Shown here piece after piece: positions 1-10,000 of a stretch of 10,000 bases of DNA; position 1 is the first letter of the stretch; each line of letters begins with the position of its first letter. The position numbers and the translations under genes are program-made. Under the pieces are notes generated by a model that saw only the letters and a program-made list of their open reading frames with translations, searched no databases and was not told the DNA's origin. This stretch comes from Candidatus Hydrogenedens sp. (lineage in GTDB: Bacteria > Hydrogenedentota > Hydrogenedentia > Hydrogenedentales > Hydrogenedentaceae), in NCBI GenBank assembly GCA_020216745.1, contig JAIWNQ010000048.1, forward strand, positions 1-10,000, given 5' to 3'.

Positions 1-77
1 TGTGCAAAAATCATACCGACAGGAAGAAGTAATAAAATACAAATCGTTAATGATATAAAAAAATATCTCCCGTTCAC
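1..77 (-). CDS. Partial secreted protein (N-terminus only), possibly Skp/OmpH-like chaperone
   Basis: Only the first 25 codons plus two bases are inside the window; the rest lies beyond the left edge. The frame opens with GTG at 77-75, preceded by an AAAGGA ribosome binding site ending 6 nt upstream, and there is an in-frame TAG just before it. The visible peptide is a textbook signal peptide: a short n-region with one Arg (residues 1-4), a hydrophobic core FFISLTICILLLLPVG (residues 6-21), and a small residue (Ala25) where signal peptidase I could cut. It follows bamA on the same strand. In many Gram-negative bacteria the gene after bamA encodes the periplasmic chaperone Skp/OmpH, so that is the leading guess, but nothing of the mature protein is visible. 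Export is well supported; the specific identity is inferred from position only. Confidence 0.6.
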   Translation of the reverse strand, partial: MNGRYFFISLTICILLLLPVGMIFA

Positions 78-125
78 TGCGAATCCTTTCTATTTATGTT
101 AATTTAACAATTGTTATTTTATTCT

Positions 126-154
126 TATTTAATATATAGACGAAAGTATATCAA
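126..154 (-). promoter_or_regulatory. Possible promoter for the truncated secreted-protein gene
   Basis: On the minus strand TTGATA (154-149) is followed after 17 nt by TAAATA (131-126), a fair -35 and a weak -10 match. It lies about 50 nt upstream of the GTG start at 77, in the 151-nt gap after bamA. An alternative -10, TATACT, overlaps it but has no good -35. The surrounding DNA is very AT-rich, so chance matches are easy. The gene could equally be read through from bamA, since I see no convincing terminator between them. Confidence 0.25.
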
Positions 155-228
155 ATTTTTATTTTAAATTTCACGTATGCGGGATTTTTTCTAAGAATAA
201 GGGAATCTTTATCATATATTCTTTTTGA

Positions 229-2544
229 TTAGAATTGCAATCCTGTAGTTAAATGTAATCTACCGTGTCCTTGGTCATCATCAGGATTTAATGGAATACC
301 ATAATCAACACGAATAGGTCCTATCTTCGGAATTTCTGCACCTATTCCTAATCCGCTACTATATCTTAAATCTGACAAATCGATATCTCCCTCATCTTCC
401 CAAACACCACCCATATCAATAAAGCTATAAATTCTAAAGATATTTGTCACCTTATACTTTAATTCTAAATTGTTAACTAATCGTAAATTACCGCCTTTGG
501 CAATCCAATCTCCAAAGAAGCCATATTCACGAATCTTAGGACCAATATCACGATAATCATAACCTCGGACTGTGGTAGTACCACCAGCATAAAAACGGTA
601 GATTAGTGGTATATAATCTGAGTCTCCATATTCTGTCATCCAACCCTCACGAGTTCTTAGCATAAAAACCCACTTTTTATCTTTATCCAATGCCCTATAC
701 CAAGCAAAATCAAGTTGCAATTTTACAAAATTATTATCTCCGCCAAGTCCAGCAAGTTCTGAACTTAACACAGCATTAATACCACGACTTGGGTCACGAT
801 AACGGTCTAAAGTATTTCTCTCTAAACTCAAAATTGTACTTACCGTTGTTGAATTTTCAGTTTGTTTTCTTATTTCAGGATTTATAAACCATGAAAGGTC
901 ACTAATATCGACATCTTCAACCCTAAATGCTAACCGTGCAGTATTGTAAAGTGAAAGCGCCTTCCCAAAACGTATTTGTCCTCCTGTCTGATTTTCACGG
1001 TAGTCTGCACCACTACGAACCCAATAGGATTCATCATACAAATCTACGCCAAGTGAAATAGGATATCCAAATATCTCGGGGTCAGTGAAACTTACACTAT
1101 AGCGGTCTCTTCTGTCACCGACGTGAACACGTGCTGAAAATTGTTGTCCTCCCCCTGAAAAGGATGGCCAGTTGGTAATGTCAAAATTTCTTAGTCTTAA
1201 CTGTGCAAAACCGCCAACACCTTCATCTGTACTATATCCAGCTCCGAAAAGAAAGGTATTGGTTTTCCCTTCCTCTACATCTACAAGTAAATTAGAATAT
1301 CTTGGGTCTTCTTCATCATCATGGAGCGTAATACGGATTTTATCAAAATAATCCGTATTTTCAAGTCGCAATCGGCTTGATTCCACAGCAGAACCATCAT
1401 ATCGTTCTCCAGGTTTCACTAATACCTGCCTGCGAATGACTTCATCTTGTGTAACATCATTACCCGTAATATCAACTTGTTTTATATATTTCAATTCACT
1501 TTCAGATATGTTATATACAATATTCGTTGTTTTATTCTGTTCATCTTTTGAGACCTGTGGAGTTACGGTAGCATCCACATAACCACTATCTTGGTATTTC
1601 TTTTCAAGTACTTGAGCATCTTTAGCCACCTGTCCTTTATTATGAATATCTTCTGGTTTTACTTTGATATCCTTTTCTAACTCTTCAGCATCAAAAACGA
1701 TATTATTTGCGTATTGTAGAGATTGAACTTTATATTGGTCTCCCTCCTCAACAAAAAGTTTTATTCTAAGCTTTTTTCCATTATCTGTATATAGAACATC
1801 TGTATGCGTTACTTTAGCATCTAAATAACCGTGGTCTCCATACTTATTAACTATATTCTCCAGGTCGGTCTCAAATTTGGTCTCGTCATATTTACCACCC
1901 AAAAACCACCAAGCGGGTTTGGTCTTCATTGCTTTCTTTACCTGACGGTCACTCAGTGCTGAGTTCCCTTCAATTTCAATCTCTTTAATTCTTGCTTTTT
2001 TCCCTTCATCAATAGAATAAATAATACGAACAAGTCCAGGTTCCACTTTTTCTGTTATAACATCAACCTTTGTATTTGCATATCCCTTTGCTTGATACAT
2101 ATTAATAATTGCTTTTCTATCTTCCTCACAAAGTTCGGGAATAAAAGAAGTTCCTCTTTTTTGCTTTAATACAGGTTCTATTGCACGGGGTTTTATTTTT
2201 TTGCAACCAATTATTTTCACATCTGATATTCTTCGTTCTTCTTCCACTATATATGTCACTTTGACTCCATCCCCTTCTGGAATGACCTCAACACTTACTT
2301 TTGTAAAATAGCCTAAATTATAAATTCGTTTAATATCTCGTGCTACAGCTCTGGAATTGAGTTTATCTCCCACTTTTGTTTCTACCTGTCCTAACACAAC
2401 CTGTTCGTTAAGTTTTTCAAGCCCTTGAATATTTACAGAAAGAACTTCTTTGCCTGAATAATCCGTTTCTTGTGTCACAGAATTTTTACATAAAATAAAA
2501 ATAACAATAGATAAAATGACATGTACATATCTTGTTCTTAACAT
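229..2544 (-). CDS. bamA: BamA, outer membrane protein assembly factor
   Basis: Essential Omp85-family protein that folds and inserts beta-barrel proteins into the outer membrane. The 771-residue product has an N-terminal signal sequence (hydrophobic core about residues 7-19), then five POTRA repeats at roughly 33-103, 104-180, 183-268, 271-349 and 352-426. The C-terminal barrel of about 345 residues starts near 427 with FLFGAGYSTDEG. The conserved loop-6 motif appears as VRGY (659-662), and the chain ends in Phe771, as expected for an outer-membrane beta-signal. Length and domain order are normal for the family. The ATG start has an AAGGGA ribosome binding site 8 nt upstream. It lies 54 nt after clpC with no clear terminator between, so it is probably the last or next-to-last gene of the mcsA-mcsB-clpC operon. 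A translocation protein TamA is unlikely because TamA has three POTRAs. The presence of this gene shows the organism is diderm. Confidence 0.95.
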   Translation of the reverse strand: MLRTRYVHVILSIVIFILCKNSVTQETDYSGKEVLSVNIQGLEKLNEQVVLGQVETKVGDKLNSRAVARDIKRIYNLGYFTKVSVEVIPEGDGVKVTYIVEEERRISDVKIIGCKKIKPRAIEPVLKQKRGTSFIPELCEEDRKAIINMYQAKGYANTKVDVITEKVEPGLVRIIYSIDEGKKARIKEIEIEGNSALSDRQVKKAMKTKPAWWFLGGKYDETKFETDLENIVNKYGDHGYLDAKVTHTDVLYTDNGKKLRIKLFVEEGDQYKVQSLQYANNIVFDAEELEKDIKVKPEDIHNKGQVAKDAQVLEKKYQDSGYVDATVTPQVSKDEQNKTTNIVYNISESELKYIKQVDITGNDVTQDEVIRRQVLVKPGERYDGSAVESSRLRLENTDYFDKIRITLHDDEEDPRYSNLLVDVEEGKTNTFLFGAGYSTDEGVGGFAQLRLRNFDITNWPSFSGGGQQFSARVHVGDRRDRYSVSFTDPEIFGYPISLGVDLYDESYWVRSGADYRENQTGGQIRFGKALSLYNTARLAFRVEDVDISDLSWFINPEIRKQTENSTTVSTILSLERNTLDRYRDPSRGINAVLSSELAGLGGDNNFVKLQLDFAWYRALDKDKKWVFMLRTREGWMTEYGDSDYIPLIYRFYAGGTTTVRGYDYRDIGPKIREYGFFGDWIAKGGNLRLVNNLELKYKVTNIFRIYSFIDMGGVWEDEGDIDLSDLRYSSGLGIGAEIPKIGPIRVDYGIPLNPDDDQGHGRLHLTTGLQF

Positions 2545-2598
2545 TGAACAAATCCCTTCATTATGTTATATTCAATATTTTTCGCCTACAGTTTTGCC

Positions 2599-5097
2599 CT
2601 AATTATTTATTAATTTTACAGTATTATTATCCGTTTTTGGTAATTGATTTTCAAACTGGTTCTCCTTTACCTTAAATTCCAGAGCAGTTCCATCGGAATT
2701 TAAATCAATTAATACAGTACTTCCCTCCTTTATTTCGCCTGAGAGCAGTTTCTCAGCAAGCGGGTCTTCAATGTTTTGTTGAATAGACCTACGAAGAGGA
2801 CGAGCACCATATTCTTCACTACTACCTATATTTACAAGGAATTTTTTAGCTGAAGGTGTAATTTCAATTTTCATTTGTTTTTCTTGTAAATGCTTAGTAA
2901 CTTCATTCATTTGAATATCGACAATTTGTTCTAATTGTTCCTGAGTAAGGCGATGGAAAACAAGGACTTCATCTAAACGGTTTAGAAATTCTGGATTAAA
3001 TGTTTTCCTAACTTCTTCCATAACACGGTCACGCATCTTTTCATATTCTTCTTCTATACTATCTTTTTGAAAACCTAATGAGGTTGACTTTCCAATTTTA
3101 CGTGCTCCAATATTTGACGTTAAAACAATTACCGTGTTTTTAAAATCTACTTTTCTTCCACTACCATCGGTCATTTGGCCTTCTTCAAGTATTTGCAATA
3201 ATGCATTAAAAATGTCAGGATGTGCCTTTTCTATTTCATCGAACAGCACTACTGAGTATGGTCTCCGTCTTACCTGCTCTGTTAATTGACCTCCTTCATC
3301 ATAACCTACATATCCTGGAGGTGCCCCCATAAGTCGTGATACAGTAAATTTTTCCATATATTCCGACATATCTAACGTAATTAGAGCCCGCTCATCACCA
3401 AACAAGAATTCAGCGAGTTTCTTAGCGAGAAGTGTTTTTCCTACACCAGTAGGACCCAAAAATAAAAACGAGCCTACAGGACGGTTTGAGTGCCTCAAAC
3501 CTGCTCTTGACCTTTGAATTGCGCGGGTAATGGCATTAATCGCTTCATCTTGTCCGACTATCGATTTATGTAGCTCTTCACGCATTCGAAGCAATCGTTC
3601 AGATTCAGTCTCCCCAATCTTGGTAAGTGGGACTCCTGTCCATTTCGAAACGACGTAAGCGATGTCTTCAGCAGTAACTACTGCTTGAGCAGAATCTCGC
3701 TGTGACTCCCATTCCTTTTTCTTCTCTTGATAAAGAGATTGTAATCTCCGTTCACGGTCACGTAGTGAAGCTGCTTTTTCAAATTCTTGGTGTTTTATAG
3801 CTATCTCTTTATCCTGTGTTACTTTTTCGATTTCCGCTTCTAATTCTTTTAATTCCTTTGGTCTTGTCGTAATTTGTAAACGGACACGACTCCCCGCTTC
3901 GTCAAGGACATCAATTGCTTTGTCTGGCAGATATCTATCAGAAATATATTGGTCGGATAATCGAACTGCTGCGATGATAGCGTCATCGGTATATTTTACT
4001 TTATGATGTGCTTCATACTTATCACGCAGTCCTTCCAATATCCTAATTGTCTCTTCTGGAGTAGGCGCCTCCACAAAAATAGTTTGAAAACGACGTGCAA
4101 GGGCACTATCTTTTTCAATATATTTACGATACTCATCGGCAGTTGTGGCACCGATACATTGCAATTCACCGCGAGCCAAAGCAGGCTTTAACATATTTGC
4201 AGCATCAACAGCACCTTCTGCGGCTCCTGCACCTACAATTGTATGTATTTCATCAATAAATAGAATAATATTATCTTCCCTTTGAATTTCTTTCATGACC
4301 GATTTTAATCGTTCTTCAAACTGTCCCCGATACTTCGTTCCTGCAATAACTGCTCCTAAATCTAATGTCAAAACACGTTTATTTAATAACAAATCTGGCA
4401 CATTCCCATTTACAATTGCCTGAGCCAACCCCTCAACTATTGCAGTTTTACCGACACCTGCCTCACCAATAAGAACTGGGTTGTTTTTTGTTCTCCTACT
4501 TAATATCTGTATTACACGCTCAATTTCCACTTCTCTCCCAATTACGGGGTCTAATTTGCCTTCTCTCGCTAAGTAGGTTAAATCTCTACCAAATGTATCT
4601 AAAGCAGGAGTCGTAGATTTTTTCCGCTCATGAGGTTCGCTCTTTCCACCTTTACTGGTTTCACCGATAAGTTTCATAATTTCTGCTTGTGCACGGTGTA
4701 AGTCAACACCAAAATCATGTAGCAATTTTGCAGCAACTCCTTCTCCCTCTTTAATTAGACCTAAAAGGATATGCTCGGTACCTACATAAGTATGGTTAAA
4801 ACGATGTGCTTCTTCAACTGCCATCTCAAGAACTTTTTTTGCTCTTGGTGTGTAGGTAATTTCATCGGATGAAAGCAAAGCCGGTCCGGAAGGACAACGA
4901 TGTTCAATTTCTTGCAATAACTGTTCTAAATCTATGCCTAAATTTAATAAAGCCTTCGCAGCAATACCCTCTGTTTCAAGACAAAGAGCAAATAAAATAT
5001 GTTCAGTACGAACGTATTCACTTCCTCGTTTTACAGCCTCATTACGAGCGACAGCGATAACATGCCGAGCTCGTTCTGTAAATCGTTCCCATAACAT
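2599..5097 (-). CDS. clpC: ClpC-type AAA+ unfoldase, ATPase subunit of Clp protease
   Basis: Hsp100 unfoldase that threads substrates into the ClpP peptidase in the cytoplasm. In the 832-residue product the order is: two Clp_N repeats (about 1-145), AAA1 with Walker A GEAGVGKT (211-218), Walker B ILFIDE (278-283) and Arg finger ARR (334-336); a middle region with a UVR-type helix (about 430-450); AAA2 with Walker A GPTGVGKT (548-555), Walker B VVLFDE (616-621) and sensor-2 GARPLRR (764-770). SLGFQ (673-677) matches the ClpP-docking loop, so it should work with a ClpP encoded elsewhere. The N-domain TEH motifs place Glu32 and Glu108 where Bacillus ClpC has its phosphoarginine-binding Glu residues, though these are also conserved in ClpC lineages without McsB. 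The short middle domain and UVR motif mark ClpC rather than ClpB or ClpA. The start has AAGGGA 8 nt upstream, and the gene lies 38 nt after the mcsB-like gene. The last 22 residues are a polar, Asn-rich tail. Confidence 0.95.
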
Positions 5098-5135
5098 TTA
5101 CTTATTCCCTTATAAAAAATTCTTTTGTTCTTAAA

Positions 5136-6278
5136 TTAATTTTTGAATATTTCCTTAAACTTGCTTGCGCGTGCTAAACTCATCTTCACAGTGTTATTCC
5201 CATTTCCAGTTAAATTAATGATAATATGTCCTCCTTGAAGTTCAAAAAGCAAAGGTAAAGGTAAAGATGGAATATTTTTAGAAGTTAGGTTCAAAGAAGA
5301 GCCTAATTGCAAAGCAGACCATAACTCAATTGCCTCAGCAAATTCCAAAAATTTAGCTCCGTATGCGACACCTTCAGCTCTTCCTACGATATCTTCTAAT
5401 GTTAACCGACTTGAAGATAACAATTTCTGTCTTGCATCATTTTCAGCCTTTGTTATTTCACTAACCATGTGGGATAAGGAAAAAACTATCTCTGCTTCGG
5501 AAAATCCAAGGGTATACTTATTACCAATGGCAAAAAGACTACCTACTGTCTCTATAAATCCGACAGTAACTGGCGTGCCTATGGTACTATGAAATCCTTG
5601 TTCAACAAGATGTTTTGGGATGGATAATGGCCTGGCGTCAACGGGAGGACCTGTTTTAATTCCATTTAAATAAAAACCTAATGACTTCAATTTTTCTTCC
5701 CAGAGCATTATACTCCCCGTTCTTGCCAGTCCTGGAAGATGAAGAATAACAAATAACTTCAACCCTGTACCAACAAGGTTCAAATCTGACGTTAAAAATC
5801 CCAACCGTGAGTCTGTCATATAGTCAATAGACTTGCTTATTCTATCGTCGATTTGATTAAGTAATTCCCAGACCTTCTCAACCTGAGCCCCTGCAAAAAC
5901 GGAACGAAGAACAAGATGCTCTCCCCCATTAATCATTAGCGAAAACCGTTGGTCTCTACTAATAAAAACACCTCTACGTCCAATACCTGAAAGTAAATCG
6001 TAAGACACGAGAAATCGTTCTGACAAAAAAAGGTGTTCTCGTGGAGATACTCCTGCAAAACTGACATATTCATCTACTGAAAACTCATCAAACTGCGTTA
6101 GTGCTTCTTTCAATAAGATTTCAAGCCGTTCTTTTTCTTCTTCGCCCATTCGTACTGGAAAAAAGAACCCTGCAACATTACGACATAATGTCCCGACAGT
6201 AAAAATAGCAACCGGTGCACCTTCTGCCTCTTCTTTCCACCATATTGGTTTATTATCTACCCACGTTTTCATAATCAT
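5136..6278 (-). CDS. McsB-like protein, probable catalytically inactive arginine kinase
   Basis: The 380-residue product matches the fold and position of McsB, the phosphagen-kinase-type protein arginine kinase, but has lost its active site. Family landmarks remain: SERFLVS (86-92), MINGGEH (115-121), a GFLT...VGTG...ILHLPGL block (160-184), NKYTLGFSE (253-261), and a C-terminal helical region with LEDIVGRAEG (294-303). Against canonical motifs: SSRxRLARN reads FTVGTLCRN (26-34), keeping one of three Arg; NEEDH reads NGGEH (117-121); TACPTN, carrying the catalytic Cys, reads TSDLNL (163-168); the Arg after GTGL is Lys174; the GEGSE loop reads IETVG (242-246); and RDxxRA reads MSLARA (366-371). 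The frame is intact over full length, so this is a maintained protein, not a decayed gene. I chose ATG at 6278, 2 nt after the mcsA stop with GGGAAAG upstream; a TTG at 6302 inside mcsA is in frame but less likely, and ATG 6272 is possible. Inferred role: adaptor or regulator with McsA and ClpC. Confidence 0.85.
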   Translation of the reverse strand: MIMKTWVDNKPIWWKEEAEGAPVAIFTVGTLCRNVAGFFFPVRMGEEEKERLEILLKEALTQFDEFSVDEYVSFAGVSPREHLFLSERFLVSYDLLSGIGRRGVFISRDQRFSLMINGGEHLVLRSVFAGAQVEKVWELLNQIDDRISKSIDYMTDSRLGFLTSDLNLVGTGLKLFVILHLPGLARTGSIMLWEEKLKSLGFYLNGIKTGPPVDARPLSIPKHLVEQGFHSTIGTPVTVGFIETVGSLFAIGNKYTLGFSEAEIVFSLSHMVSEITKAENDARQKLLSSSRLTLEDIVGRAEGVAYGAKFLEFAEAIELWSALQLGSSLNLTSKNIPSLPLPLLFELQGGHIIINLTGNGNNTVKMSLARASKFKEIFKN

Positions 6279-6280
6279 AA

Positions 6281-6808
6281 CTAATTCTTTCCCATTTTCC
6301 AAGAAGATATTGTTTTCTCTAAATCTATAATTTCATCACGTAGCTTAGCCGCAAATTCGTAATCTTCTGCTTTAATTGCTTGTCGAATTAACGCTTTTTT
6401 AGTATCCAGAAGAAACTGTGCCCGAACCCGCTCTTCATCATTAGAATAATTTAATTTTTTACCGATATGAGTGCCTCCACCTTGAATAACTTCAAGTATA
6501 GACTCTATTTCTGGACCAAAATTTTTGTAACATGTAAAACAACCAACCTTGTTTTTTTCCTGGATATAATTCAGCTGGGTACCACATACCGAACATATAG
6601 ATTTGACTTTTGCCTTTTTGGATATATCTTCTATAGTTTCTTTTGATTCTTTTACTTGTGGTTCTTCTGAACTCAGTTTAAATCCTTTCGGGTTATTTTG
6701 AACTTCTATTAAACAGTCAGGGCACAAATGAATCTCAGTAACATGTCCATCTATAACCTCTGCATATCTAACTGTGGCAAGTTTTTTCTTGCATTTTTGG
6801 CAAATCAT
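6281..6808 (-). CDS. mcsA: McsA-like zinc-finger/UVR protein, activator or adaptor of the ClpC system
   Basis: In Firmicutes McsA binds and activates the arginine kinase McsB and helps deliver CtsR and other substrates to ClpC. The 175-residue product shows the expected two zinc modules, each with paired CxxC: Cys3/6 with Cys29/32, and Cys72/75 with Cys90/93. The sequence GGTHIGKKLN (111-120) follows, where McsA has a conserved H-x-GK segment. A C-terminal UVR motif sits at about 132-167 (KKALIRQAIKAEDYEFAAKL...), a likely contact for the McsB/ClpC partners. Size is typical. The ATG start has TGAGGA 7 nt upstream. It is the first gene of the minus-strand operon and ends 2 nt before the McsB-like gene. 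All eight metal ligands are present, so it looks functional even though its usual partner appears catalytically dead. There is no ctsR before it, unlike in Firmicutes. Confidence 0.9.
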   Translation of the reverse strand: MICQKCKKKLATVRYAEVIDGHVTEIHLCPDCLIEVQNNPKGFKLSSEEPQVKESKETIEDISKKAKVKSICSVCGTQLNYIQEKNKVGCFTCYKNFGPEIESILEVIQGGGTHIGKKLNYSNDEERVRAQFLLDTKKALIRQAIKAEDYEFAAKLRDEIIDLEKTISSWKMGKN

Positions 6809-6815
6809 CGTTAAT

Positions 6816-6842
6816 TCCTCATGTGTTAATTAAATTATACCA
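6816..6842 (-). promoter_or_regulatory. Extended -10 promoter and ribosome binding site for the mcsA operon
   Basis: On the minus strand TGGTATAAT occupies 6842-6834: a perfect TATAAT with the TGn extension, which can compensate for a poor -35 (only TGAAGG at 17 nt spacing). Transcription would start near 6827, giving a leader of about 18 nt with GAGGA at 6820-6816, 7 nt before the mcsA ATG. I saw no CIRCE element (TTAGCACTC inverted repeat) and no CtsR-type tandem GGTCAAA heptads, so the usual heat-shock repressors are not indicated. Confidence 0.5.
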
Positions 6843-6892
6843 TTATTCATGATTTGCCTTCACCTTTAAGAAGAACCAATTAAAGATTCCAT

Positions 6893-6922
6893 TTGCATAA
6901 AACTCACAAAAGTGTTTAAAAT
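6893..6922 (+). promoter_or_regulatory. Possible promoter for the small membrane protein gene
   Basis: TTGCAT (6893-6898) and TAAAAT (6917-6922, five of six consensus bases) are 18 nt apart on the plus strand, which would start transcription near 6929 and leave a leader of about 59 nt. The -10 overlaps a small symmetrical sequence, TTTAAA-A-TTTAAA (6915-6927). This lies in the 179-nt divergent gap between mcsA and the plus-strand gene. The match is moderate and the region is AT-rich. Confidence 0.3.
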
Positions 6923-6987
6923 TTAAATGGCAACTATGCATCATTGAAATAATATCGAATACCTACTGCAAATCTTTGGAAGGAAAC

Positions 6988-7281
6988 ATGCCCCTTCGAA
7001 ATAGAACAATTACAAAAATTCTCAGTTTTATAATCGCACTATATCTTATCATTGCTGTGTTACACGGCATTGCTCCTGGAATTTGGAAAAAATCCTTTGG
7101 GGGAGCTGAGGGAAAAGGTCCTTTTAGAATTCTAATGTTTACTCCCTTATTAATCTTCTCTGTTTTTATATCTTATCTTTTATATCAAATTTGGGATAAC
7201 ACATGTTCCCATAAACCAAAGGTATGTTATTTAAAAATTTTTCATGAACCTTACTCCAGACGGGGTCCCCCAAATTATTAA
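6988..7281 (+). CDS. Small two-helix membrane protein of unknown function
   Basis: I do not recognise this 97-residue protein. It has a basic N-terminus (MPLRNRTITK), a first hydrophobic helix at about 11-31 (ILSFIIALYLIIAVLHG), a polar loop rich in Gly and Lys (about 33-48), and a second hydrophobic helix at about 50-70 (ILMFTPLLIFSVFISYLLYQIW). A short, basic, Cys-containing tail follows, ending RRGPPNY. Two membrane-spanning segments with both ends cytoplasmic are likely. The ATG at 6988 is preferred because GGAAGGA lies immediately upstream; a TTG at 6976 is in frame but overlaps that ribosome binding site. It is transcribed divergently from mcsA and lies 96 nt before the prepilin gene. 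The tail around 7262-7270 contains an unusually GC-rich GGGGTCCCC, so a late frameshift or altered C-terminus cannot be excluded. The start, codon-like composition and hydrophobic pattern favour a real gene. Confidence 0.6.
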   Translation: MPLRNRTITKILSFIIALYLIIAVLHGIAPGIWKKSFGGAEGKGPFRILMFTPLLIFSVFISYLLYQIWDNTCSHKPKVCYLKIFHEPYSRRGPPNY

Positions 7282-7377
7282 ACCTCCCTATTCATCCTGT
7301 CTAAAATTCTAAATACTCAATCTTACTCTTTCTTTAGTTAACTATTTTATCTTACAAATCATTAGGAGGTGTTTGAA

Positions 7378-8322
7378 ATGAAAAAATATGGTTTTACTCT
7401 TATAGAACTACTGGTAGTTATTGCGATTATCGGTATATTGGCGGCAATTTTATTACCAGCATTAGCGCGAGCACGTGAAGCGGCACGCCGTTCCAGCTGT
7501 CAGAACAATCTTAAACAATGGGGTATCATCCTAAAAATGTATGCAGGAGAGGCTAAGGGAGAACGATTTCCTATGGTATTGATTAACATGGAATCATTAT
7601 ATGACTGTGAGACTCTTACCCCTACTGGAGCCACGAATTACGTTTATGGTTTAAATCCGAGAATATCTGATATTTATCCTGAATATCTTACCGACCCAGC
7701 TATTCTTGTTTGTCCTTCTAATTCAAAAGTGACCGTAAATAACTTAAAAAACTCGAAAGGTGATTGGACGATTAACTATGCCTGTGATGATGGTACTGGG
7801 CATCTTTTACATTCCGCAGGTGTACGACTCGGGGTGAATAGTTATATTTATACAGGTTGGGTTTTTGACCGCTGTGAGTTAACTGACCCAAAAACAAATT
7901 TAACTCCTTTTGCACCGTCAAAAGAAGGTAGTGCTCAATTATGGAATGGATTAGCCTATACCGCAATGCAAGGAGCTATGGCTCATAATTATAGTGTGGC
8001 TGATAAAGACATCCCTGGAATGTTTCCAAATGGGAATGCTGGTGGAGATATTATTTACCGCTTACGTGAAGGTATTGAAAGATTTTTAATTACGGACATT
8101 AACAATCCTTCCAGTAAAGCACAAGCACAAAGTAGCGTGTGGATTATGTTTGATATTTTGGCTACTGGAAGTAAAACACAATATTTCAATCATATTCCTG
8201 GTGGTTGTAATGTGCTATATTTAGACGGGCATGTAGAATTTATAAGGTATGAAGGTAGGGCACCTGTAAATCGATATGTTGCGGAATGCCTTTCTGCAAT
8301 TCCCTATGCTTTATCATTTTAG
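7378..8322 (+). CDS. Type II/IV prepilin-like protein with C-terminal H-x-DG box
   Basis: Pseudopilin-like secreted protein of a family that is highly multiplied in planctomycete-type genomes. The 314-residue product starts [17 protein letters not shown]: a prepilin peptidase site after Gly5, with the conserved Glu at +5 of the mature protein (Glu10). A hydrophobic helix runs to about residue 30, followed by an [18 protein letters not shown] segment (30-47) typical of these proteins. Near the end [16 protein letters not shown] (229-244) and [16 protein letters not shown] (271-286) match the conserved C-terminal region often labelled H-X9-DG; here the His272-to-Asp283 spacing is ten residues. 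Seven Cys are present. The ATG at 7378 has a strong AGGAGGT 7 nt upstream; the GTG at 7369 overlaps that site and is rejected. No pilus or secretion machinery is nearby, so it would use machinery encoded elsewhere. The precise substrate or surface role is unknown. Confidence 0.9.
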
Positions 8323-8336
8323 TAATTGCAATTACT
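8321..8336. repeat. Perfect 16-bp palindrome overlapping the prepilin stop codon
   Basis: AGTAATTGCAATTACT reads the same on both strands and includes the last two bases of the TAG stop. It is directly followed by a second small inverted repeat. As a fully symmetrical sequence without a loop it suits a dimeric DNA-binding protein better than an RNA terminator stem, but its AT content makes chance symmetry possible. Confidence 0.4.
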
Positions 8337-8338
8337 TA

Positions 8339-8365
8339 AAGGTACTACCTTAAAATACCCTTTTT
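8339..8365. terminator. Possible weak bidirectional terminator between convergent genes
   Basis: AAGGT-ACT-ACCTT (8339-8351) forms a five-pair stem with a three-base loop, followed on the plus strand, after a few bases, by CTTTTT (8360-8365). It sits where the plus-strand prepilin gene and the minus-strand phosphoesterase gene converge, 41 nt apart. The stem is short and the T run is separated from it, so termination strength is doubtful. Confidence 0.35.
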
Positions 8366-9209
8366 AATAAACTGTAATTATATCCTGAACAATTGGTTTA
8401 CCGTACTCCACTTCACCTACTTTAATATGTAAATTAGGTAGGATATGTACATCAGCATACCCGTGAGTATGTCCACATAGAACCAGAAATTGATGATACA
8501 TACTGTTCATAGCAGATGATTGAATAACCTCTCCTAAGGCACCACATGTATAGTTTGGCAACCATTTTGCATCCCCTCTGCGACCTTGATGCCAGCATGC
8601 TTCAGCAAAAGGAGGAACATGGGTTGCAATTATTATATACTGAGCACGGCTCATCGCCTCAGGCAGTAATTTAGCTAAATATCGAGCAGACTCGGCACCG
8701 ATAGCCTGAATAACCTGCTTAATTCGAGGACGGTCAAGCCCAATGAGTTCTTTAATAAATAGATAGTCACTCATTTTCGTTTCTGCATGGTCAAAATCAC
8801 CAAGCCTCGCATCTCCCCAACCATCACAGCCTATAAGTACCGTGTTAGGGGTTAATGTAACAATACCCACTTCTGGTAACCATCGAACACGCTGAGAGTA
8901 TCTCGTAATCTGCCTGACCTTTTGCCGAACTTGTTCTATTGACCCATGATAATAATCATGATTACCTAATACAAAGTACACGGGACACGTAAAAACACGG
9001 TCTATATATAATAACCACTTATCTACTGTCTCAGCAGTCGAAATATCCCCCGTTATAACAACTAACGAAGGTTTCTTCTCAGCTATTTCGCGAATAAAAG
9101 CAGAGCCTTTTTCAGGTGGGAGATGGTCTAAATGTATATCTGTCACCCACAACAGAGAAAGTGGTTCTCCTTTTTTATTATCTTTCATATTCATCTTTAT
9201 GTTTGACAT
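8364..9209 (-). CDS. Calcineurin-like metallophosphoesterase
   Basis: Cytoplasmic two-metal phosphoesterase of unknown substrate; members of this superfamily cleave phosphomono- or diesters, including cyclic nucleotides and nucleotide-lipid precursors. All five signature motifs are visible in the 281-residue product in the right order: DxH (Asp24, His26), GD (Gly54-Asp55), GNHD (82-85), a lone His in ATHVPPF (His197), and GHTH (246-249). Thus both metal sites and the catalytic His look complete. There is no signal peptide or membrane segment. The first 16 residues are a Lys/Asn/Met-rich stretch outside the fold, and the ATG at 9209 lacks a Shine-Dalgarno sequence, so the true start could be one of the in-frame ATGs at codons 6 or 8. 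It lies 35 nt after the EamA transporter gene on the same strand and may be cotranscribed with it. An LpxH-like role is possible in a diderm but is not supported by any specific motif I can name. Confidence 0.85.
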   Translation of the reverse strand: MSNIKMNMKDNKKGEPLSLLWVTDIHLDHLPPEKGSAFIREIAEKKPSLVVITGDISTAETVDKWLLYIDRVFTCPVYFVLGNHDYYHGSIEQVRQKVRQITRYSQRVRWLPEVGIVTLTPNTVLIGCDGWGDARLGDFDHAETKMSDYLFIKELIGLDRPRIKQVIQAIGAESARYLAKLLPEAMSRAQYIIIATHVPPFAEACWHQGRRGDAKWLPNYTCGALGEVIQSSAMNSMYHQFLVLCGHTHGYADVHILPNLHIKVGEVEYGKPIVQDIITVY

Positions 9210-9244
9210 TTTGTTAAGTTTTATTTTTATTTATAGTTTTTAAT

Positions 9245-10000
9245 CTAAATAGGTTTGGATATATTTTTATTTAATGGTTTTATCCAAATAACACAAGATA
9301 TAGAGAATAATACCATTATCATCCCAATCAAATGATATATATCCACTTTCATTCGATTTAAAAACAATTCAATCATCATAGTGATTAAAACTTGACTTAA
9401 TCCTAAAATAGAAATCCACTGTGGTTTCCCATTACCATAAGCATTTGTTAAAAAAATTTGACCTACTGTTCCACTTACTCCTATCACTATAAGCAAGAGG
9501 TAATATTTTTTCATTATGACTATTATGTTAGAAAATTGAGAGCAGTAAAAGCAAAAAAGGATAAAACTCGTTATCACTGCTACCATACTGTAATGGGATA
9601 CAACGGTAATCGGTGTAATTTTTCCACAGAAACTTAAGCTAACCATAGCAGAACCTGCACATATAGCACCTATAAATGCAATAAATATAGGAATAACATT
9701 GCCTTGAAATTGTGGTCTTTCTATTATGCATATTCCTATAAATGTAGATATAACAAAAACCCAAAGTAACGGAGGTGCTTTGTCTTTGAAAACAATTGCC
9801 ATAATAAATCCTATCCAAATAGGGGTTGTAGCAAAAATAGTAACTGTGTCAGTAGCATGTAAATGGGATAAGGAATAAAAGGTACAAAGTAATGCAACAG
9901 TCCCAAAAATACTACGTAGCCATAAAGAAAAAGAACCAATTAAAATGGGTTTTTCTCCTATAAGCAACGCAAAAATCAAAATAAAAATAAATGTAGGAAG
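9245..10000 (-). CDS. EamA/DMT-family transporter, N-terminus beyond window
   Basis: Integral inner-membrane permease of the drug/metabolite transporter superfamily; substrates in this family range from amino acids and metabolites to drugs, and cannot be told here. The open frame continues to the right edge, giving 251 visible residues. Family members are usually around 300 residues with ten helices in two EamA repeats, so roughly 50 N-terminal residues are missing. About eight hydrophobic segments can be seen. The first-repeat pattern SLWLRSIFGTVALLCTFYSL followed by a TDTVTIFATTPIW segment is characteristic of EamA, with a second-repeat equivalent at GQIFLTNAYGNGKPQWISIL. The product ends with a Lys/Asn-rich polar tail after the last helix. 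A TTG within the frame at 9979 is an internal Leu codon, not a start. The gene lies upstream of, and in the same direction as, the metallophosphoesterase. Confidence 0.85.
   Translation of the reverse strand, partial: LPTFIFILIFALLIGEKPILIGSFSLWLRSIFGTVALLCTFYSLSHLHATDTVTIFATTPIWIGFIMAIVFKDKAPPLLWVFVISTFIGICIIERPQFQGNVIPIFIAFIGAICAGSAMVSLSFCGKITPITVVSHYSMVAVITSFILFCFYCSQFSNIIVIMKKYYLLLIVIGVSGTVGQIFLTNAYGNGKPQWISILGLSQVLITMMIELFLNRMKVDIYHLIGMIMVLFSISCVIWIKPLNKNISKPI

Follow-up and report, generated by a model that had tools for sequence, protein, structure and literature searches.

Why is a McsB protein that lacks the arginine-kinase active site kept at full length between McsA and ClpC? The question is raised by a 10,000-nucleotide stretch of DNA from Candidatus Hydrogenedens sp. 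(assembly GCA_020216745.1, contig JAIWNQ010000048.1, positions 1 to 10,000; hereafter the window), a genus that NCBI places in Candidatus Hydrogenedentales, phylum Candidatus Hydrogenedentota. The gene in question, pseudo-mcsB (5136..6278, minus strand; start codon ATG at 6278, last base of the stop codon at 5136), encodes a protein of 380 amino acids with a full-length McsB fold; an in-frame TTG at 6302 would give an alternative product of 388 amino acids. An earlier, sequence-only reading of the window had given the boundaries of this frame exactly and had interpreted the product as a pseudokinase acting as an adaptor or scaffold in a kinase-free version of the phospho-arginine (pArg) degradation pathway. 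The usual work of McsB is to mark damaged proteins with pArg. We confirm the observation itself and find the interpretation as a whole partly supported. That the window McsB is a pseudokinase, as proposed there, is strongly supported by sequence comparisons, in which loss of the catalytic residues extends through the whole order, the fold is conserved, the gene is under purifying selection and its linkage to mcsA is tight.

The motifs quoted in the sequence-only reading (FTVGTLCRN, NGGEH, TSDLNL, MSLARA, VGTG, ILHLPGL and NKYTLGFSE) are all present in the translated frame. When aligned with arginine kinase, the window protein retains none of the eight residues of the catalytic set: R124 is replaced by V28, R126 by T30, E225 by G119, R229 by V123, C271 by D165, R280 by K174, R309 by N205 and E314 by G240. 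The residue numbers of the eight sites are those we take to apply to arginine kinase; the C271, E314 and H227 numbering also occurs in PDB titles. FTVGTLCRN (6177..6203, minus strand; residues 26-34) stands for SSRxRLARN, where the Arg loss noted before holds for the first two residues (V28 and T30), the third being retained as R33. NGGEHLV (5910..5930, minus; residues 117-123) stands for NEEDHLR, the catalytic Glu and the phosphate-binding Arg being gone, and SDLNL (5775..5789, minus; residues 164-168) for SCPTN, with D165 where the catalytic Cys was; the alignment thus bears out the claimed loss of the NEEDH Glu and the CPTN Cys. MSLAR (5169..5183, minus; residues 366-370) takes the place of the RDxxR motif of the pArg pocket, in which R337 and D338 are gone but R341 (Bacillus subtilis numbering) is retained as R370.

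In B. subtilis McsB, each of the substitutions R29K, R31K, R34K, R125K, R176K, R207K and R337K abolishes the phosphorylation signal (PMC7235348), and an R337A/D338A mutant loses the higher oligomers (PMC8370763). Only one of these seven essential Arg residues is retained in the window protein (R34, as R33) and six are lost, with V28, V123, K174 and N205 at the positions of R29, R125, R176 and R207. Judged by its residues, pseudo-McsB would be a descendant of a protein-arginine kinase unable to hold the ATP phosphates or to phosphorylate arginine.

The McsB fold is present in the window protein as a phosphotransferase and a dimerisation domain. The NCBIfam equivalog thresholds for McsB are missed (182.4 against 385 bits for NF002194, 155.4 against 500 for NF053707), as is that for the McsA of the window (82.1 against 210 bits for NF053706), which has a UVR match. 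Alignment of two separately built profiles by hhalign puts the motifs in the same register and reveals a 30-residue insertion (5565..5654, minus; residues 209-238) that occupies the position of the RGxxGEG catalytic loop. In the structure model, residues 211-240, which overlap the insertion, have block values of the predicted local distance difference test (pLDDT) of 86, 92 and 96.

Two other accounts were rejected. A relocated active site, with the equivalent catalytic residues elsewhere in the protein, was looked for at the level of sequence and was not found: the hhalign register is unchanged, the cleft motifs show no newly conserved set of Glu, Arg and Cys, and C32 is the only Cys of the window protein. 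A sequencing error or frameshift is unlikely because the protein cluster of the window (P0001, with two member sequences and a clustering threshold of 90% identity) lies on six contigs, the longest of 246,930 bp, and the degenerate form occurs in 60 of the 68 genomes of the order. No second, intact McsB was found in the genome of the window (G000), which has one PF00217 protein and, at 86% completeness, could lack a copy.

The expectation that the residues would be lost across a clade and the fold kept is borne out in the order (genomes G000-G067), whose bacteria are mostly uncultured. PF00217 matches occur in 60 of the 68 genomes, one frame per genome and all of them degenerate; the McsB proteins of G053 and G057 are identical, leaving 59 distinct proteins, and family sizes are lower bounds (protein searches scored the top 8000 word-sharing candidates). 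The eight kinase residues are all lost in 18 of the 60 members, while one is kept in 25, two in 11 and three in 6. The catalytic Cys is lost in 60/60; 11 members still have E225 and 2 have E314, never both together. As for the pArg pocket, R337 is found in 2/60 and D338 in none, with R341 in 59/60 (one gap). Of the seven essential Arg residues, the 58 full-length order rows have one (23 rows), two (23), three (10) or five (2) left, and the 48 intact homologues, a set chosen for having most of them, six (11) or seven (37). A set of 46 intact homologues has 54 sites that are at least 90% conserved; the 57 order rows compared with it retain 31 of these sites and have replaced 23, the replaced sites lying mainly in the SSRxRLA, NEEDHLRxQ, CPTN, R-S, RG and GEG motifs; as the intact set is defined by the eight kinase sites, full conservation of these sites there is by construction. 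This comparison left out L022, L032 and L052, and the hhalign comparison also L054; contig ends truncate L022, L032 and L054, the first two at the N-terminus.

Eight order genomes lack a PF00217 match (G001, G010, G020, G032, G036, G040, G054 and G063). For four of them an assembly gap is likely because the genes sit near contig ends: clpC starts at base 2 in G001, 381 in G020 and 459 in G054, and mcsA ends 173 bases from the contig end in G032. The two members least degraded by essential Arg, L010 (G042) and L024 (G015), keep R124, R229, R280 and R337 and have neither the Cys nor either catalytic Glu; they may represent intermediate stages of the loss.

The degenerate gene is under constraint. 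Of 20 pairs compared within the order, 17 give a ratio of non-synonymous to synonymous substitution rates (dN/dS), which ranges over 0.036-0.263, many of these pairs being synonymous-saturated (one further pair is identical and two have saturated dS); the six pairs with dS < 1 give 0.036-0.201. In the window, mcsA (6281..6808, minus; 175 amino acids, with both zinc fingers, comprising eight Cys, and a UVR motif) ends 2 nt before the mcsB ATG. A same-strand mcsA is directly upstream in all 58 loci with upstream DNA, the mcsB start lying -16 to +49 nt from the end of the mcsA stop, and between -7 and +10 in 55 of them (starts chosen by script). The eight Cys of McsA are kept in 57/57 complete order proteins. 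McsA occurs in 60/68 order genomes, and its mismatches with the McsB set (G032, G066) fall at contig ends. In Staphylococcus aureus, the McsB loop Y147-Y153 touches the C-terminal zinc finger of McsA (PMC12467219); its counterpart in the window is TDSRLGF (5796..5816, minus; residues 155-161), and the Gly of this loop is present in 60/60 order pseudokinases and the next aromatic residue in 59/60.

The claimed kinase-free version of the pathway gains indirect support from the missing YwlE-type motif. A codon pattern for CTGNTCRSP, which we take to be the YwlE motif, was found in 0/68 order genomes; a single absence is weak because the pattern admits AGY serine only. Among the seven genomes in which McsB has the full set of eight residues, three carry the pattern (G076, G085, G094) and four do not; it also occurs in G073 (McsB with 6/8 residues) and nowhere else among the 100 genomes. 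Of about 80 low-molecular-weight phosphatase (PF01451) loci listed for the order, 30 were read, 21 carrying C[LM]GNICRS and 9 CTGN[SA]CRS, and none of the 30 has a YwlE-like signature. YwlE selectivity rests on one residue change from the tyrosine phosphatases (PMC5506225).

The clpC gene of the window (2599..5097, minus) encodes 832 amino acids with a double Clp_N, AAA domains and a UVR middle domain and starts 38 nt after the mcsB stop. The mcsA-mcsB-clpC arrangement described in the sequence-only reading is thus present in the window, but clpC follows pseudo-mcsB in 36/60 loci of the order (neighbourhood counts were made by eye from the locus table), and the constant unit is mcsA-pseudo-mcsB rather than the triple, because 19/60 loci have no adjacent full clpC. 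A close ClpC (69-76% identity) is found, among the matches listed, in 22 of the 24 genomes searched, 21 of which are without and 3 with an adjacent clpC; none was found in G049 and G051, both 82% complete. Two of the 19 loci carry an open reading frame (ORF) with Clp_N only. In these genomes, G049 and G055 (genus g35, family f10), pseudo-mcsB is followed by a gene for a stand-alone protein with a double Clp_N, composed of the two repeats and a charged tail (about 1219-2055, minus, of L057 in G049; near 3104-3526, minus, of L066 in G055; the Pfam assignment was made on the G049 copy). The position of this gene links pseudo-McsB on genetic grounds with the N-domain of ClpC, which in B. subtilis is the pArg reader (PMC5506225).

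We propose, as the best and a probable explanation, that the McsB pseudokinase serves ClpC as an McsA-bound adaptor or regulator without a pArg tag. McsA, responding to redox state or stress by means of its zinc fingers, would bind the conserved LGY/F loop of pseudo-McsB and shape its dimer or oligomer; the McsA-pseudo-McsB complex would bind the ClpC N-domain and either hand damaged or regulatory proteins to ClpC or toggle ClpC between idle and active states, in both cases without a phospho-arginine tag. The complex, its ClpC contact, its cargo and the absence of cellular phospho-arginine are what we infer from the genomic pattern. Adaptors of ClpC such as MecA deliver untagged substrates to its N-domain, and pseudo-McsB, likened to them by role only, would do likewise. 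Bacterial serine/threonine pseudokinases have a fold unrelated to that of McsB. The resemblance to the known McsB proteins of B. subtilis, Geobacillus and S. aureus (PDB codes: 6fh1, 6fh3, 6tv6, 8gqd) lies in the shared fold, whereas the window protein lacks the catalytic Cys, the Glu pair, the phosphate-binding Arg residues and the RD of the pArg pocket that characterise the protein-arginine kinase, and has the 30-residue insertion. With the serine/threonine pseudokinases it shares a retained kinase fold and lost catalytic residues (PMC12599244).

An adaptor or scaffold role is plausible by analogy with the B. subtilis McsB C167S mutant, which has no kinase activity. This mutant lengthens the half-life of MgsR less than an mcsB deletion does, from which its authors infer a kinase-independent McsB adaptor function, possibly for ClpX (PMC7235348). 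McsB C167S differs from pseudo-McsB in being a laboratory mutant with one engineered change and no natural lineage; the rest of its active site and its pArg pocket are intact, and its effect is tied to ClpX.

Several points weigh against the proposal of a ClpC adaptor. In 19/60 loci the DNA downstream, 800 nt or more, contains no full clpC (5 further loci end too soon), and the Lentisphaerae locus L143, described below, has no clpC beside its mcsA-pseudo-mcsB pair. Two or three of R124, R126, R229, R280 and E225 survive in some proteins of families f4 and f5, which, judging by these residues, might still bind nucleotide. The residues at the customary pArg sites of the window ClpC are still Glu (E32 and E108, by what we take to be the site numbers of B. 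subtilis ClpC), which we regard as not informative. The stimulation of ClpC by McsB requires kinase activity in B. subtilis (PMC5506225), and the precedent for a kinase-independent role bears on MgsR and probably on ClpX, not on ClpC (PMC7235348).

The alternative that survives best, although we think it unlikely, is that the pair has left ClpC, pseudo-McsB stabilising or regulating McsA as a zinc-finger redox sensor and acting elsewhere, e.g. on a transcription factor. The invariance of mcsA as neighbour (58/58), which clpC does not share (36/60), agrees with it, as does L143, and in B. subtilis oxidation of McsA silences the McsB kinase and allows McsB, freed from McsA, to remove CtsR from DNA (PMC5506225). 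Against this, clpC does adjoin in those 36 loci, a close ClpC is encoded in 22/24 genomes searched, and two genomes have the ClpC-N-domain ORF in the same place. CtsR itself was found in 0/100 genomes, an absence that says little because the search, which among 14 controls matched Lactococcus lactis only, missed the B. subtilis control.

A second possibility, quite improbable in our estimation, is a changed enzyme whose altered cleft binds nucleotide or another ligand for a different chemistry; in SelO-type pseudokinases an altered cleft carries out a different chemistry. The cleft loop of the window protein is, in the model, replaced by a confidently predicted insertion rather than merely lost, some order members keep R124, R229, R280 or E225, and E48, R55, Y71, Q110, D152 and E263 are conserved specifically in the order. 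However, no alternative catalytic set is conserved order-wide, the cleft residues vary by family, and no Cys column is conserved throughout, the best-shared one being present in 42/60 members and absent from the window protein.

We give still less credence to an ordinary, divergent McsB that remains an arginine kinase with its residues in unusual places. The PF00217 score of the window protein is far above the cut-off and one source names P0066, P0070 and P0082 'protein arginine kinase', but the catalytic Glu pair and the Cys are lost together with six of the seven Arg residues at which even a change to Lys kills B. subtilis McsB (PMC7235348), hhalign yields no other register, and the YwlE-type motif was not found in the order. 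A decaying pseudogene with a frame open by chance, as might be suggested by how far the families have diverged (the window protein is 22-36% identical to members outside its genus-like cluster), is scarcely credible and already contradicted by the data, as none of the 60 matches (three cut by contig ends) has an internal stop, dN/dS is far below 1, the fold is confidently modelled and the mcsA linkage is invariant.

Pseudo-McsB proteins are also encountered outside the order. In L143 (4342-6059, plus strand), from a Lentisphaerae metagenome-assembled genome, mcsA abuts a second type of pseudo-mcsB, and the product of the gene that follows has VUPS, PAS and histidine kinase domains. A third group, of one family, comprises L154-L159 (G070, G100-G103), with mcsA upstream in G070. 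Scattered single McsB homologues have lost the catalytic residues partly or fully (P0085, P0086, P0050, P0055, P0058, P0060), P0086 being named protein-arginine kinase by a source.

Support is 100/100 for each of the three clades of pseudo-McsB in the 62-row tree described below, and long branches were met in the 96-row tree. Approximately unbiased (AU) tests in which the clades were held together pairwise reject no pairing (p 0.357, 0.256 and 0.243), and in a second tree the order and Lentisphaerae held together give p 0.63 with a higher likelihood; the three clades may go back to one loss or to several. The three trees were built from subsets picked by hand (96, 63 and 62 rows), after removal of the catalytic columns and the insertion; the 63-row tree left out 8 rows that were long or chosen on other grounds, and the 62-row tree also the partly degraded P0048, P0050, P0055 and L031. 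A wider reading, which we advance tentatively and hold to be a little short of probable, is that ClpC is served by a tag-free pathway: McsB would have shed pArg chemistry in no fewer than three bacterial groups, and the McsA-pseudo-McsB pair would itself receive the substrates of ClpC or switch it allosterically. The catalytic site is lost in all three groups, and the pArg pocket and the YwlE-type motif also in the order of the window; on this reading a new element would lie over the old active site in many members.

Downstream of clpC in the window lies bamA (229..2544, minus), and mcsA, pseudo-mcsB, clpC and bamA run in one direction with tight spacing. Divergent from mcsA is a small membrane-like ORF (6976-7281, plus) without a Pfam or NCBIfam match, which is also divergent beside mcsA in G002 and G003 and has matches in 10/68 order genomes, that of the window included. 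The gene at 7369-8322 (plus) encodes a DUF1559-type pseudopilin with a C-terminal H-X9-DG motif, a type common in Planctomycetes. Rfam at the gathering threshold gave no match in window positions 5000-7000. PADLOC gave no match for McsA or pseudo-McsB and ATPase-type matches for ClpC.

In the literature searched, outside which many subscription papers lie, we found neither an account of a McsB lineage that is kinase-dead in nature nor a paper on a pseudokinase of the phosphagen-kinase fold, which is not proof of absence. In B. subtilis the adaptor role of McsB is hard to separate from its role as pArg writer because the stimulation of ClpC needs the kinase (PMC5506225). An order in which a McsB that looks incapable of phosphorylation is kept with McsA and ClpC supplies natural separation-of-function proteins. 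A PF00217 or McsB annotation, such as the name carried by P0066, P0070 and P0082, is not evidence of phospho-arginine signalling. If the tag-free reading is true, the kinase and adaptor functions of McsB would be separable by evolution.
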